Of a DNA stretch of 39,801 nucleotides, positions 3,773-39,801 are shown in pieces. Numbering within the stretch: the first letter of the stretch is position 1; each line of letters begins with the position of its first letter. Under the pieces are notes generated by a model. That model saw only the letters and a list, made by a program, of their open reading frames with translations. It did not search any database and was not told the DNA's origin. Where the stretch lies: the NCBI GenBank assembly GCA_902766095.1, contig CACXCN010000016.1:1-39801 (forward strand), in the 5' to 3' direction. This DNA comes from an uncultured Selenomonas sp. Lineage in GTDB: Bacteria; Bacillota; Negativicutes; Selenomonadales; Selenomonadaceae. Position numbers and translations under genes: made by a program.

Positions 3773-4615
3773 TCAAAGCACGCGCGAAGCATGGCGCATA
3801 GCATGGCAGCAGATGGTAACTGCAACCGGCAGGCCGGCGATATGAGTCGGGCCCCACTCGATATTGACAGCGAGTGCCGACGTCGTGCCGCCGAGCTGCG
3901 GTCCGATACCCGTCTGATTTATGAGGTCGAGGAGTTCACCCTCGAGCTTGGCATAGCGCGGATCCGGATTGCGCTGATCGATGGAGCGCGTCAGCGCCTT
4001 CTTCGACAGCAGGGCAGCGCGGTCCATCGTACCGCCGATGCCGATGCCGACAACCATCGGCGGGCACGGATTCATGCTGGCATGCAGGATGATGTCCATG
4101 ACGGCATGCTTGACGCCCTCGACGCCATCGGCCGGCACGAGCATGCGCACGCCGGATTTGTTCTCCGAGCCAAAGCCCTTCGGAGCGATCGTGATCTTCA
4201 GCTTGTCACCCGGAACGATCTTCGTGTAGATGACGCCCGGCGTGTTGTTCTTCGTGTTCACGCGGTTGAACAGCGGCTCAGCCACGACCGACTTGCGCAG
4301 GTAGCCCTCGGTGTAGCCTTTGGCGATGCCCTCATTCACGGCATCCTCGAGCAGGCCGCCAGTGATGTGCAGATCCTGGCCGACCTCGAGGAATACGATG
4401 GTCATGCCGGTATCCTGGCAGTACGGACGATCCTCGGCGCGGGCGATCTCAGCATTCTTGATGATCTGATCAAGAACGTTCTGGCCGACCGGCGACTTCT
4501 CCGTCTCACGGCCGCGCTTCAAAGCCTCATAGACGTCCTTCGGCAGATAGTAAGCTGCCTCTTTGCACATCTGAGCCACATTCTCAGTGATTTGTTTTGC
4601 ATCTAGCTCTCGCAA
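3773..4615 (-). CDS. Class I fumarate hydratase, alpha subunit
   Basis: Large subunit of the oxygen-sensitive [4Fe-4S] fumarase. With the start at 4615 it has 280 residues, typical of this subunit. Candidate cluster cysteines are C66 (YCQDTG), C184 (NPCPP) and C269/C270 (ICCHAMRH). The start is a TTG codon: the in-frame ATG at 4630 lies inside the sequence ATGGGAGGG, which itself supplies a strong Shine-Dalgarno seven bases before the TTG. Only the TTG gives the family-typical N-terminus MRELDAKQIT. It leads a fumarase-sdh cluster in the direction of transcription, consistent with the malate to succinate branch of fermentation. Confidence 0.92.
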   Translation of the reverse strand: MRELDAKQITENVAQMCKEAAYYLPKDVYEALKRGRETEKSPVGQNVLDQIIKNAEIARAEDRPYCQDTGMTIVFLEVGQDLHITGGLLEDAVNEGIAKGYTEGYLRKSVVAEPLFNRVNTKNNTPGVIYTKIVPGDKLKITIAPKGFGSENKSGVRMLVPADGVEGVKHAVMDIILHASMNPCPPMVVGIGIGGTMDRAALLSKKALTRSIDQRNPDPRYAKLEGELLDLINQTGIGPQLGGTTSALAVNIEWGPTHIAGLPVAVTICCHAMRHASRVL

Positions 4616-34406: not shown

Positions 34407-34892
34407 TCACTCCACATCGAGCCCGATATCGTTGCGGAGCTGGATAGCCTCAGCTATATGCGGCGCCGCTATATCCGGCGAGCCGGCCAGGTCGGCTATG
34501 GTGCGGGCTACCTTTATTATACGGTCATAGGACCGGGCCGACAACAACATTTTCTTAAAAGCAGCGGCCAACAGCTGCTGGGCCTGCGGCTTCAACGGAC
34601 ATTCCTGCTGGAGCACGGCATGGTTCATCTGTGCGTTGCAGAATATGCCGTATTTCTGCAGACGGCGCTGCTGGATTTTGCGTGCCGCCACGACGCGGGC
34701 CCGGATGACCGCTGACGGCTCTGCCCGGCGCTTCGAGGTCAGCTCCTCATATTTCACACGCGATACCCTGATATGGATATCAATGCGGTCGAGCAACGGT
34801 CCTGATATCTTGCGCGTGTAGCGCTTGATCTCGGTCGGCGTGCAGTTGCATTCGTGATCCGGGTCGCCCTGATAGCCGCACGGGCAGGGATT
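34407..34892 (-). pseudogene. comM: comM (Mg-chelatase-like AAA+ helicase) 3' fragment, cut by insertion
   Basis: The residual frame encodes the last 160 or so residues of ComM/YifB, beginning at NPCPCGYQGDP and containing ISGPLLDRIDIHI and the C-terminal RSYDRIIKVARTIADLAG. ComM is a hexameric helicase that helps branch migration in natural transformation. Sequence to the right of about 34893 (upstream for this gene) is not ComM; the open frame continues by chance into element DNA up to 35006, where its apparent start lies within a terminator. Full-length ComM is about 500 residues; the N-terminal ATPase part is missing from the window. No frameshift is seen in the remaining portion. Confidence 0.9.
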
Positions 34893-34904
34893 CCCTATCC
34901 CATA
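34890..34904. other. Probable attachment junction (element/comM border)
   Basis: The border lies in the sequence ATTCCCTATCCCATA. ComM homology ends at the AAT codon of NPCPCG (34890-34892), and the sharp change to AT-rich DNA begins a few bases later. The exact core dinucleotide cannot be set without the other end of the element. Confidence 0.65.
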
Positions 34905-34973
34905 TATAATGATACAATTTAACGATGAACCCCATTTGAACCCCCCCTCATACAGTATTTTTCCCCATAATTG

Positions 34974-35015
34974 TAAAAAAATGCTCCCATTACGATTATC
35001 ATACATAATGGGAGC
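34974..35015 (-). terminator. Terminator at the end of the element's recombinase operon
   Basis: GCTCCCATTA (34983-34992) pairs perfectly with TAATGGGAGC (35006-35015). On the minus strand it is followed by ATTTTTTTA. It shields comM' from element transcription. Between it and the TrpF-like gene, 35016-35094 holds nothing recognisable. Confidence 0.88.
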
Positions 35016-35094
35016 CTCTTTTATTCCACTAGCCTAATTCCAAACCATTCTCAAAACATAACATTCTTAGCCCCTTGATTGTCCCGCAAAGTGC

Positions 35095-35694
35095 TTATCC
35101 TGCCAGTCTACTTCCAATTCTTCTAAAGAAACCACGAATCTTCTTAACATCCCCGTCAAACTCTGTATCACTAGACACATCAATGGCATATGGATGGAGC
35201 CGCTTGTTTACCATCCCTACGTTTTCCCTGCTGATGTTGTCTGTAACAATCACGGACTTGTTAACCTTGGAAATGTCCTCAGCAATTTTGTGCCATTCCT
35301 CTGTTCCGACTGGCTTGCCAATGTTCAGTAATATCATTTCTGCCGGGTATTTATTCGCCAAATCAACAGAAAAGTCCTCTCCATATCTGAATCGCTTAAT
35401 TACAGGGCATGAAATCTGTCTTGCATATTTTTCATCCTCATCCCCATCGAGTTCGACATATTCCAAGCCTACTTTAGCTACTAATTGATTTACGACAGTT
35501 AAGTCCTCGTTTTTAAATACTCCTACAGTCCTGGCGTCCGGGACTTGTTGAGCTAAAACCGTCGCTCTCCCCAATGATATGCAGTCACTATTATCTTTAT
35601 CAAATACAAAAGTTATAAAAGCAGCGCCACATTCTTCAGCTGTTTTTGCCGTTAGCATATCTTTAACTCCTGTAACCATAGCCCTGATTTTCAA
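35095..35694 (-). CDS. TrpF-like (phosphoribosylanthranilate isomerase fold) probable pseudoenzyme
   Basis: The 199 residues follow the TrpF beta/alpha barrel pattern: an N-terminal strand, CGAAFITFVF, TVGVFKNE, VELDGDE (80-86; usual VQLHGDE), ILLN (121-124), RENV (156-159) and PYAIDVSSDTE (168-178; usual PxAVDVSSGVE). But the catalytic residues look lost. The KICGI cysteine corresponds to T8 in MVTGV, and the catalytic Asp of LLLD is N124. The phosphate-binding GGLNPEN reads DNISREN. So isomerase activity is unlikely. The start is probably TTG at 35694 after AGGGGGGGATAAGG. It sits downstream of two recombinases on the element, ending in the terminator beside the attachment site. The base composition matches the element, not the host. 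Function unknown. Confidence 0.75.
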   Translation of the reverse strand: MKIRAMVTGVKDMLTAKTAEECGAAFITFVFDKDNSDCISLGRATVLAQQVPDARTVGVFKNEDLTVVNQLVAKVGLEYVELDGDEDEKYARQISCPVIKRFRYGEDFSVDLANKYPAEMILLNIGKPVGTEEWHKIAEDISKVNKSVIVTDNISRENVGMVNKRLHPYAIDVSSDTEFDGDVKKIRGFFRRIGSRLAG

Positions 35695-35789: not shown

Positions 35790-37358
35790 CTAGCATTCTA
35801 CCGAAATCTCTATACCGCCTACAAATGTAAAGACCACCTTCTGCTTCGTATACACAGTCAGGTACTCAACTATCCCAGCCCATAAGTTTTCATCGAACTC
35901 GAGAGCACCTATCCCCAGCTTACCAAACTTATCTATGAATATATCTATCTTAATTCCCAATGCTTCATGATTCTTTATTTCTTCTTCAATTTCATCTGAC
36001 CTTGTCAGATTTTGCTCATATTTTCCATACATTTCTGTATATTTCCTGTTATACTCATCCTGATTCTGCACTACTTTGGCATTATCAGATATCATTGAAC
36101 GCAGTTCGTTATCAAGACGTGTTATTTCATCATGCACCCTTTTTTGCTCATCTATCAAACCTGCTGTGTCAGCCTTCTGTCTAAGTATCTTCAAATTATG
36201 TATTACCTCAGCCTTATCTGTAATCATCAAATCCATTGCCTTCAGAAACCATCTCTTTATCTGTTCCTCAGTTACTACCGGCGTTGAACACCATTTGTCG
36301 TATCTATACTTATGGTTGCATCTATACACCTGCTTGCGATATTTATCATTTGAATGCCATACCTTTGCTCCATACCAGCCCCCGCACTCTCCACATTTAA
36401 TTTTCGATGAGAATACGCTTACTCCACTATACCTTCTAGAAAAGCCTTCACGTTTCGCAAATTCTGCCTGTACAAGTGCAAAAATCTCAGGCTGGATAAT
36501 CGGCTCATGGTGCCCTTCTATGTAATACTGAGGAAGTTCCCCCTCATTCTTTTTCCGCTTCTTCTGCAGGAAATCTATGGTGTACTCCTTTTGTAACAAA
36601 GCATCGCCTTTATACTTCACATTTTTGAGGATAGATATTATTGTGCTGGCATACCAACGTTTTCCCCCCAAGGCTGTCATGCGTCCCCTGCGCTCCAACT
36701 CCTGCTTAATGGCATAGCAGGATAATCCGGAAAGAAATAGTTTGTAGATGAGTCTTACCGTATTGGCTTCTTCCCTGTTAATTGCAAAATCTTTGTCGTA
36801 TCCTAGAAAACGATCATGCTGTAAGATTACCTTGCCATCGGCAAATGCTTTACGTATCCCCCATGAGGTGTTTTCAGATATACTCCGACTTTCCTCCTGC
36901 GCCAGACTACTCATGATTGTTATGAGCAATTCTCCTTTACTGTCCAGAGTCCAAATATTTTCTTTTTCAAAATACACCTCAATGCCTTTATCCTTTAGTT
37001 TCCTAACTGCTGTTAGAGAATCAACTGTGTTGCGTGCGAACCTGCTTATGGATTTAGTCACAATAAGATTAATTTTTCCCGCCAATGCATCATCAATCAT
37101 TCTATTGAATCCATCACGGCGTTTGGTGTTTGTCGCCGTTATGCCTTCATCCGAGTACATACCCACGAACTCCCAATCGTCATGACTGCTTATGTAGGAC
37201 TTGTAGTAATCCATTTGTGCTTCATAGCTGGTCTGCTGATCTTCATGGGCGGTAGATACCCTTGCATATCCTGCCACCTTCCGTTTTACTCTGCCATGAA
37301 CCGGGGTCATGGTAAACCTGTTCAATGTGGCAGGAATTTTGGTTACTCTCGCTGCCAT
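35790..37358 (-). CDS. Large serine recombinase (second of the pair)
   Basis: Site-specific recombinase of 522 residues that cuts and rejoins att sites through a serine. The resolvase domain opens at about residue 26 with GYARVSTAHED, S35 being the nucleophile, and includes SISRFARNTVD. The recombinase domain follows (about 200-300), then a zinc ribbon (CGECGGWYG ... RCNH ... WCSTP) and a coiled coil (about 390-460) typical of large serine integrases. Its start overlaps the end of the upstream recombinase by 16 bases, indicating translational coupling. With its partner it presumably integrates or excises the element at comM. Confidence 0.93.
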   Translation of the reverse strand: MAARVTKIPATLNRFTMTPVHGRVKRKVAGYARVSTAHEDQQTSYEAQMDYYKSYISSHDDWEFVGMYSDEGITATNTKRRDGFNRMIDDALAGKINLIVTKSISRFARNTVDSLTAVRKLKDKGIEVYFEKENIWTLDSKGELLITIMSSLAQEESRSISENTSWGIRKAFADGKVILQHDRFLGYDKDFAINREEANTVRLIYKLFLSGLSCYAIKQELERRGRMTALGGKRWYASTIISILKNVKYKGDALLQKEYTIDFLQKKRKKNEGELPQYYIEGHHEPIIQPEIFALVQAEFAKREGFSRRYSGVSVFSSKIKCGECGGWYGAKVWHSNDKYRKQVYRCNHKYRYDKWCSTPVVTEEQIKRWFLKAMDLMITDKAEVIHNLKILRQKADTAGLIDEQKRVHDEITRLDNELRSMISDNAKVVQNQDEYNRKYTEMYGKYEQNLTRSDEIEEEIKNHEALGIKIDIFIDKFGKLGIGALEFDENLWAGIVEYLTVYTKQKVVFTFVGGIEISVEC

Positions 37359-38866
37359 ATTTTCACCGTCCCATCTTTTAATTCGTATCGAAGCTTATCA
37401 TCAAATACCTGCATCTTCCGCACCCTTTCTACAAATGCCGGCTCACCATCCGTCACTTCAAGGATGCTGGCTGTTGCCCGCCGCAGTTCATCATCCGTAA
37501 GAACCTTAAGGGTGCATTGGCTTTTAGGAGCCGGACACCCCCACCTTATTGCCTTCACGCAGGGTTTCCAGCTGAACCGTCTCAACGGGGTACCGCACTT
37601 CCCACAAAACAACCTGCCCTTGAATCCGTTGTTCATAAGGGTGCCACCGTACTTCCTGCCCACATTCTTGACCCTTCCATCATTCAGATAGAATTCAATG
37701 CGATCACCATAGACAACAATTTTTTCAACCAATCTGCAGAATTCATCATCAGTAACTTTACCTACTACCGATTCGGTTGCCGTTTCAAGTTCCATTTCTC
37801 TAAGAATATGCATATCGCAAACTGAAGTACCCTTTCTCTCTCTTGTATTACATACCCATTTTTTCGTAAATTCCGGGTGATTCCTGCTTACGCCTCGCCT
37901 ACTGACCCCTGCACCACAATTACCGCATTTTATTTTGCCCGCGAACTTGGTATGCTGAGGATTTCGATTTGGCGCGGCCTCTGCTCTTTTTTGACGGATG
38001 ATTACAGCCCGTTCGTAATCTTTGAACGAAACCAAAGGCTCAAACACATCTTCCACGGCATATCTCGGAAGTTCTCCCCGATTGAGTTTCCGAACATGAT
38101 TTTCATTGTGGTAATGCTTTTGAAGAATCATCGTTCCTGTGTACGAGGGATTTGTTACGATATCCTTGATTGTACTAGCATCCAGAGGAACTCCGTTATT
38201 CCCTATTACCCCTCGCATTTTCAAATCCTTTGCAATAGCGTATCCTGACTCTCCTTCAATGTAGCGCTTGAAAATCTCCTTCACTATTTCTCCCTGCTCA
38301 GGTATGATACGATACTTCACCCCATCCCAATTATAGCCGAATGTTTGCTTATGGCCGTTCGGGATTCCTTTTTCGAATTTTTTTCTCAACGCCCACTTAA
38401 TATTTGTGGATATGCTTTCGCTTTCAGCTTGAGCAAACGAGGCTAAGAGCGTTAGGAGCAATTCCCCATCTGCGGAGAATGTTGCTATCCCTTCACGCTC
38501 AAATCTGACTTCCACCCCGATATCCTTCAAATGACGGACGGTATTTAGACAATCTACGGTGTCTCTTGCGAAACGGCTTATGGACTTTACCAGCACAATG
38601 TCAATCTTGCCAGCATCACAGTCTGCCAAAAGTCTCTTGAATTCCCCCCTGCCTGCTATGCTGGTGCCTGTTATTCCTTCGTCAAAGTATACCCCCGCAT
38701 ACTCCCATTGGGGATTGCTTTGTATTTTCTTACTGTAGTAGCTAACCTGTGCTGACAGTGAATGTAGCATTTGCTCTGTCTCCATTGATATGCGGGCATA
38801 CGCAGCCACCCTTTTCCTAGGTGGCAAACTTTGCTTATCTAGCATGATCTTCTTTATTGTAGCCAT
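37343..38866 (-). CDS. Large serine recombinase with two zinc ribbons (first of the pair)
   Basis: A 507-residue recombinase. The resolvase domain has AAYARISMETEQ with nucleophile S27, GITGTSIAGRGEFKRLL, and SISRFARDTVD. A recombinase domain (about 190-290) follows. Unusually there are two zinc-ribbon-like cysteine sets: CGNCGAGVSRRG ... WVCNTRERKGTSVC and, later, CGKCGTPLRRF ... WGCPAPKSQC, with no long coiled coil between them. The start at 38866 follows GGGAGGTGCAGAAA; the frame upstream to 38911 is not needed. It lies 44 bases after the SHOCT-like gene. The two recombinases differ clearly in sequence, so they are not a recent duplication. Confidence 0.93.
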   Translation of the reverse strand: MATIKKIMLDKQSLPPRKRVAAYARISMETEQMLHSLSAQVSYYSKKIQSNPQWEYAGVYFDEGITGTSIAGRGEFKRLLADCDAGKIDIVLVKSISRFARDTVDCLNTVRHLKDIGVEVRFEREGIATFSADGELLLTLLASFAQAESESISTNIKWALRKKFEKGIPNGHKQTFGYNWDGVKYRIIPEQGEIVKEIFKRYIEGESGYAIAKDLKMRGVIGNNGVPLDASTIKDIVTNPSYTGTMILQKHYHNENHVRKLNRGELPRYAVEDVFEPLVSFKDYERAVIIRQKRAEAAPNRNPQHTKFAGKIKCGNCGAGVSRRGVSRNHPEFTKKWVCNTRERKGTSVCDMHILREMELETATESVVGKVTDDEFCRLVEKIVVYGDRIEFYLNDGRVKNVGRKYGGTLMNNGFKGRLFCGKCGTPLRRFSWKPCVKAIRWGCPAPKSQCTLKVLTDDELRRATASILEVTDGEPAFVERVRKMQVFDDKLRYELKDGTVKIWQRE

Positions 38867-38910
38867 TTTCTGCACCTCCCTTTTGGTATCATATTCCCGT
38901 AAATCCCGCA

Positions 38911-39096
38911 CTATAGCAAGTCAATATTTGAGAATACTTCTCCAATAATCGGTCTGTATTTTTCCTGCATTTTAACTTCAAAATCTCTATACTCATCCTC
39001 GGTAATCAAACCTTCTGCTATCATTTTTCGCGCCACTGACATAGTCATTTGGTACACAATTTCCCTGCGCCCCTCAGCTTCATTCACGATTGTCAC
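38911..39096 (-). CDS. Small SHOCT-like protein of the element
   Basis: About 61 residues. The C-terminal two thirds, with ARKMIAEGLITEDEYRDFEVKM, resemble the SHOCT/short C-terminal-type helical motif (an 'LIT-x-EEY' pattern) found in small proteins encoded before serine recombinases. The likely start is GTG at 39096, overlapping the upstream zinc-ribbon gene by 17 bases and using an AAGGATAG site. Role unknown; it may regulate or assist recombination, judged only from position. Confidence 0.7.
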   Translation of the reverse strand: MTIVNEAEGRREIVYQMTMSVARKMIAEGLITEDEYRDFEVKMQEKYRPIIGEVFSNIDLL

Positions 39097-39590: not shown

Positions 39591-39801
39591 TTACTTACTC
39601 TTCAGCTGTTTCATGACATCCGTCAATTTTTCCGGCACTGGCAACCCAATTCGAGCTGCATTCTCGATAATAGAAATTCCCTCGTTGGCACAGTAGAAGA
39701 AAATAACCGCCGTCCTAAGGACGCAACCACCACCAACCATATTAACATCCAGCACGTTGGCCACACCAACCAAGGCCATGATAAACACCTTCTGACAGAT
39801 C
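39591..39801 (-). CDS. Phage-type holin (partial, N-terminus beyond window)
   Basis: About 69 C-terminal residues are visible; the frame stays open to the right edge, so the GTG at 39788 is not a real start. The pattern LRTAVIFFYCANEGISIIENA followed by GLPVPEKLTDVMKQL is typical of the phage lysis/toxin secretion holin family (Cph1/phage holin 4). Holins form membrane holes that let the endolysin reach the cell wall. An endolysin is expected nearby to the right, upstream in this operon. Here it supports a phage origin for the element. Confidence 0.85.
   Translation of the reverse strand, partial: ICQKVFIMALVGVANVLDVNMVGGGCVLRTAVIFFYCANEGISIIENAARIGLPVPEKLTDVMKQLKSK

Follow-up and report, generated by a model that had tools for sequence, protein, structure and literature searches.

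We analysed a 39,801-nt stretch of the genome of an uncultured Selenomonas sp. (contig CACXCN010000016.1; called the window here) and found that one of its genes, at 35095..35694 on the minus strand, encodes a protein that has the whole fold of phosphoribosylanthranilate (PRA) isomerase, TrpF, and is almost certainly not a working PRA isomerase. We refer to this TrpF-derived pseudoenzyme as pseudo-TrpF. It belongs to a family of five loci, all on mobile elements, and it may have been re-purposed for binding in conflicts between elements, phages and hosts.

A TrpF barrel with an altered active site

The pseudo-TrpF of the window matched the Pfam profile PF00697 (PRAI) with 77.8 bits (cut-off 22.7) over residues 6-189 of a 198-aa chain, and phmmer aligned it end to end with solved TrpFs; all of its PDB sequence matches were TrpFs or TrpCF fusions. 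The NCBIfam TrpF equivalogs also matched, with scores far under their cut-offs (best 93 vs 212 bits). The AlphaFold model is a complete barrel with a mean pLDDT of 91.5. According to VIA-align 2, this model aligns with three structures of T. maritima TrpF (1dl3, 1nsj and 1lbm) with Z of 24.2-24.4 and rmsd of 2.1-2.3 over 184-191 residues. Only TrpFs were found in the top ranks of Foldseek and VIA, and a BFVD structure search returned distant barrels only. An earlier note on this DNA, made from the sequence alone, had claimed a resemblance to TrpF along the full length of the protein; the profile search, phmmer and the structure prediction bear this out, and the fold-supporting blocks it named (FVF, GVF, ILL and AIDVSS) are present.

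The catalytic residues of T. maritima TrpF are Cys7, the general acid/base, and Asp126, and its Arg36 forms a salt bridge with the carboxylate of anthranilate (PMC2667513). We compared the residues of 27 Selenomonadaceae TrpFs (host TrpF included) with those of the four full-length pseudoenzymes. The Cys7 position, which is Cys in all 27 TrpFs, is Thr in the window copy (T8) and Ser in the three other full-length members. Arg36 (fixed in 27/27 TrpFs) is Asp in all four pseudoenzymes (D37 in the window), and His83 (also 27/27) is D or N (D83 in the window). The beta-alpha-6 loop GGTG..F.W, present in 26-27 of the TrpFs, is deleted or replaced in the pseudoenzymes, and the GG of the phosphate loop, fixed in 27/27 TrpFs, is variable (GGLNPEN became DNISREN in the window copy). 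The Asp126 position is Asn (N124) in the window copy only, and Asp in the other four of the five members. The host TrpF is normal at these positions apart from one letter of GGTG.

The alignment thus confirmed all three changes listed in the earlier note (Cys to T8, Asp to N124, and GGLNPEN to DNISREN). The loss of key residues is wider than it had described, as Arg36, His83 and the GGTG loop are affected too, and in one respect narrower, as the change of Asp to Asn is confined to the window copy. Compared with TrpF (PF00697; 1lbm/1nsj and the S. ruminantium-group enzymes), pseudo-TrpF has the whole (beta-alpha)8 barrel and 55% identity to Selenomonas TrpF; it differs in lacking Cys7, Asp126, Arg36, His83, the GGTG loop and the GG phosphate loop, in having gained an acidic loop and an Arg, and in being borne by a mobile element in a host that has a separate normal trpF. 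No relevant paper on a TrpF pseudoenzyme turned up in the literature collection that was searched.

Four residues are invariant in the pseudoenzymes (n = 4 sequences) and absent from the TrpFs: D32, N35 and D37, all three in the beta2-alpha2 loop, and R101, which belongs to beta5 (199-residue numbering; D31, N34, D36 and R100 in the 198-aa numbering). The loop residues make up a gained acidic patch with the motif D32-x-D/E-N35-x-D37. Since beta5 and the carboxy-terminal side of beta2 are where these residues lie in the TrpF barrel, they would face the barrel mouth. At the level of sequence, this argues for a pocket that was remodelled rather than decayed, and the shared losses, the shared new invariant residues and a low dN/dS (see below) together suggest a re-purposed barrel under constraint.

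Origin and selection

The nearest enzymes are the normal TrpFs of the genus of S. ruminantium (g22; UBA3715, TAM6421), with up to 55% identity. In the tree, the four full-length pseudoenzymes form one clade (support 100/99), which is nested in a 13-row clade of S. ruminantium-group TrpFs (support 100/100). Because of this one clade inside the Selenomonas TrpFs, a single origin of the gene from a Selenomonas-type TrpF, and its arrival in the window host on the element, are most likely. The full-length members have intact reading frames and share about 49-62% identity. Pairwise dN of 0.27-0.33 and dS of 2.4-2.5 give a dN/dS of about 0.11-0.13, which is a rough value as dS is large and the other pairs are saturated; the gene looks to be under purifying selection.

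Mobile elements that carry the gene

In the window, pseudo-TrpF sits between the last of two tandem serine recombinases and the junction of the element with comM. The features are as follows (coordinates, strand, description).

34407..34892 (-) 3' part of the host comM (Mg-chelatase-like), split by the element; profile search
34889..34895 (.) element/comM junction, attR side; core deduced from a comparison with the contig C2 end
34968..35022 (-) strong hairpin with U-tract, likely the pseudo-TrpF terminator; folding, -22 kcal/mol, z -6.65
35095..35694 (-) TrpF-derived pseudoenzyme (pseudo-TrpF), 199 aa, TTG start
35790..37358 (-) large serine recombinase (Resolvase, Recombinase and Zn ribbon); profile search
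37343..38911 (-) second large serine recombinase, overlapping the first; profile search
39591..39788 (-) phage holin family protein, partial at the contig end; profile search

The stop codon of the recombinase at 35790..37358 is 95 bp upstream of the pseudo-TrpF start, and a G-rich Shine-Dalgarno-like stretch precedes the TTG. With the recombinase on the same strand, this short gap, and the strong hairpin and U-tract behind it, the gene does hold the last-gene position that had been proposed for it. The hairpin was found by folding and missed by a simple terminator scan, and promoter matches in the simple scan were no more than expected by chance. The 5' part of comM is on contig C2 (G000:C2:42831-43868); positions 2-347 of the comM model are on C2 and positions 346-499 in the window. 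The bases shared at the junction are GAA on the minus strand, at about 34891-34893, and the other junction is the very end of C2. The adjacency to an attachment site, also claimed in the earlier note, is therefore real, with comM split by the element. Contig C2 ends a few bases from the comM/element junction (G000:C2:43865-43871), possibly because integrated and excised forms were mixed in the population or because a repeat lies at the element end. G+C is 57% on the host side of the window vs 42% in the element, and the holin fragment at the contig end points to an element of the prophage type. On a different contig, the host has an intact trpF of its own; this true trpF adjoins a ClpB-like ORF, and no trp operon is evident around it.

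We searched 189 Selenomonadaceae genomes for further members, and outside Selenomonadaceae the search was covered by a pattern scan (84,980 species) and by phage and plasmid collections. The family comprises five loci, four full-length (the window, L034, L037 and L040) and a remnant on plasmid pSRC2; all are from Selenomonadaceae or from phages or plasmids linked to them. The pattern scan of genome contigs from the 84,980 species found the UBA3715 member (L034) only. A scan of IMG/VR for close relatives with a single protein gave no match; L037 and L040 were reached via alignments of family members, and further alignment or single-protein scans added no member. Searching GenBank phages by tblastn gave only matches of 24-33%, of the ordinary TrpF/TrpC kind and none from the family, and PHROGs gave one weak family of unknown kind only.

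The L034 member, from S. ruminantium UBA3715, lies inside a 15.6-kb element that is integrated at tRNA-Leu and encodes a tyrosine integrase; the direct repeats of the element (tRNA-Leu 3' end) are at 4056-4102 and 19653-19703 of L034. Shortly before its pseudo-TrpF are genes for a C5-methylase, an HNH endonuclease and Vsr (together a type II R-M/Vsr set), as well as the gene of a superinfection-exclusion protein, SieB. This element (L034:4026-19703) also carries HTH regulators, an amidase and a RadC-like gene, and it has the look of a small satellite, or of an integrative element, with exclusion genes as cargo.

The L037 and L040 members are on IMG/VR viral contigs of 79 and 80 kb, with ParA near the gene in both. 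The L040 contig encodes a phage DNA polymerase and an endolysin, and its pseudo-TrpF has the polymerase on one side and ParA on the other. A ParA of this kind is also encoded by the phage contigs L090 (92% identity), L092 (72%) and L094 (56%), which contain no pseudo-TrpF in the ParA-polymerase interval of the stretch that was analysed, so among phage contigs of this ParA kind the gene is present in two and missing from three. In addition to ParA, the phages of all five contigs encode a DnaE-like DNA polymerase and a Gp2.5-like ssDNA-binding protein, and this ParA phage group is possibly one of phage-plasmids. Neither of the viral contigs L037 and L040 gave a match to the holin family PF05105.

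The pSRC2 remnant (L003:8061-8420) is an N-terminally truncated family member of about 120 aa, annotated as a hypothetical protein. A mutator-type transposase ORF (by reading of the ORF) is found about 1.6 kb downstream of it.

The gene thus lies within element boundaries and is optional among close relatives. Given the split comM with its att junction, the tRNA-Leu repeats at UBA3715 and the presence/absence pattern among same-ParA phages, pseudo-TrpF is very probably an optional cargo gene of mobile elements.

Relation to the serine recombinases

Homologues of the window recombinases are found in 50 of the 189 Selenomonadaceae genomes, often as neighbouring pairs. Pseudo-TrpF was found in none of 19 elements with homologous serine recombinases; in related elements the slot after the recombinase contains FMN reductase, a macrodomain protein, DUF4268, DUF1848, other or unknown genes, or host genes. 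As the 19 related elements lack the gene and the contents of the slot vary, the place beside the recombinase is a cargo slot, and the pairing is incidental rather than functional. This slot, which extends from the last recombinase to the element end (L070-L088), is a possible place for new defence or counter-defence genes.

The functional tie to the recombinase that the earlier note had drawn accordingly does not hold, and recombinase binding, one of the new roles it suggested, is unlikely on the same evidence. As a partner of the serine recombinase, pseudo-TrpF would be e.g. a directionality factor, which would suit a gene that is on the same strand, 95 bp downstream of the recombinase and adjoining the att site. 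Against it, the other members belong to elements with a tyrosine integrase or ParA, or to a plasmid, and we give a recombinase partner next to no credence. A directionality factor was rejected as there is no joint encoding with the recombinase in the 19 homologous elements.

Proposed role and competing explanations

We propose that mobile elements captured a TrpF gene of the S. ruminantium group a single time and that it was turned into a protein that keeps the barrel and no longer acts as a PRA isomerase. The Cys that transfers the proton, the Arg that binds anthranilate, the His and the loops that grip phosphate were lost in the process, and a new acidic patch and R101 became fixed near the mouth of the old active site. 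The gene now travels as optional cargo of prophages, ParA phages, integrative elements and plasmids. The remodelled mouth of the protein may bind a ligand other than that of TrpF, or a protein of the host or of a phage, and this binding may aid the element in superinfection exclusion, defence or counter-defence. The data show the fold, the losses and gains, the single origin, the link to mobile elements and the pattern of presence and absence; that the protein acts by binding, and in conflicts, is our inference. As a whole, the explanation of a captured TrpF that became a cargo binder with a conflict role is one that we consider just as likely to be right as wrong.

The conflict-type role in itself is tentative, and we put it slightly short of an even chance. 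It is suggested by the R-M/Vsr/SieB neighbourhood and by a presence/absence pattern that is typical of such genes (which is not proof); defence or exclusion genes adjoin pseudo-TrpF in only one of the five contexts, the UBA3715 element. Prophage cargo blocks often mix unrelated genes. The earlier note had listed anti-defence and ligand sensing among the possible new roles: the signs of a new role stand (a TrpF fold without its active site, carried on mobile elements), apart from the recombinase tie, and anti-defence, defence and ligand binding gain support from the neighbourhood in UBA3715. Like SieB and R-M prophage cargo, pseudo-TrpF is optional and occupies variable slots in prophages, phages and integrative elements, and in one element it adjoins such genes; it differs from them in its descent from a biosynthetic enzyme and in having no PADLOC model match (window and L040 proteins, E 0.01; PADLOC is without counter-defence coverage). 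Phages are known to use ligand sponges, such as Tad1, Tad2 and Acb2, for counter-defence. Their folds are unlike pseudo-TrpF, and the possible likeness is in the proposed mode only, a small element-borne protein that binds without turnover. Whether the family is a new kind of conflict protein, in which the former active site would catch a defence signal or an invader's factor via the acidic/Arg cluster, is doubtful.

The main rival to binding is a new enzymatic activity, as most members keep the Asp and Ser/Thr replaces the Cys. Ser/Thr8, the kept Asp and the acidic loop (possibly metal-binding) could form a new active site for another sugar-phosphate or nucleotide-like compound: Asp126 is kept in four of five members, Ser/Thr is found in all four members that reach the Cys position, and the D-x-D/E-N-x-D motif and the Arg are newly invariant. 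However, the window copy lacks the Asp too (N124), neither of the phosphate-binding loops that typify TrpF, GGTG and GG, is left, and no motif known from other families of barrel enzymes turned up, with only TrpFs on top in Foldseek and VIA; we regard a new enzyme as unlikely. Pseudoenzymes commonly regulate their parent enzymes, and with its descent from the TrpF of the same host group, pseudo-TrpF might instead modulate the host tryptophan pathway, pairing with TrpF, TrpC or TrpB or holding an intermediate, and so alter tryptophan supply in lysogeny or infection. This is distinctly improbable: with Arg36 reversed to Asp and the phosphate loops lost, the old ligand should not bind, and no trp genes adjoin pseudo-TrpF at the five loci.

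Two further explanations leave the protein without a new function. The truncated pSRC2 copy and the lost active site would be expected of a decaying, functionless trpF copy, but four frames are intact at about 49-62% identity and dN/dS is low in the computable pairs; a decaying pseudogene, very improbable in our estimate, was rejected on the dN/dS values and the shared gained residues. A PRA isomerase that still works, by way of an unusual active site, would account for the significant PRAI score and the TrpF fold. Here neither catalytic residue is kept, Arg36 and His83 are replaced, the two loops on the phosphate side are altered or missing, and the host has an intact trpF; the comparison of active-site residues and loops with 27 TrpFs led us to reject a working TrpF, the chance of which we consider minute.

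Pseudo-TrpF makes a clear case of a host metabolic enzyme that was captured and re-purposed by mobile elements. Since its parent lineage, its losses and its newly fixed residues can all be named, the new function is testable by mutating a handful of residues. If pseudo-TrpF does act in phage-host or element-element conflict, a biosynthetic barrel would join the known toolbox of such conflicts, and a gene annotated as 'phosphoribosylanthranilate isomerase' on a phage or plasmid would not automatically be a tryptophan gene.
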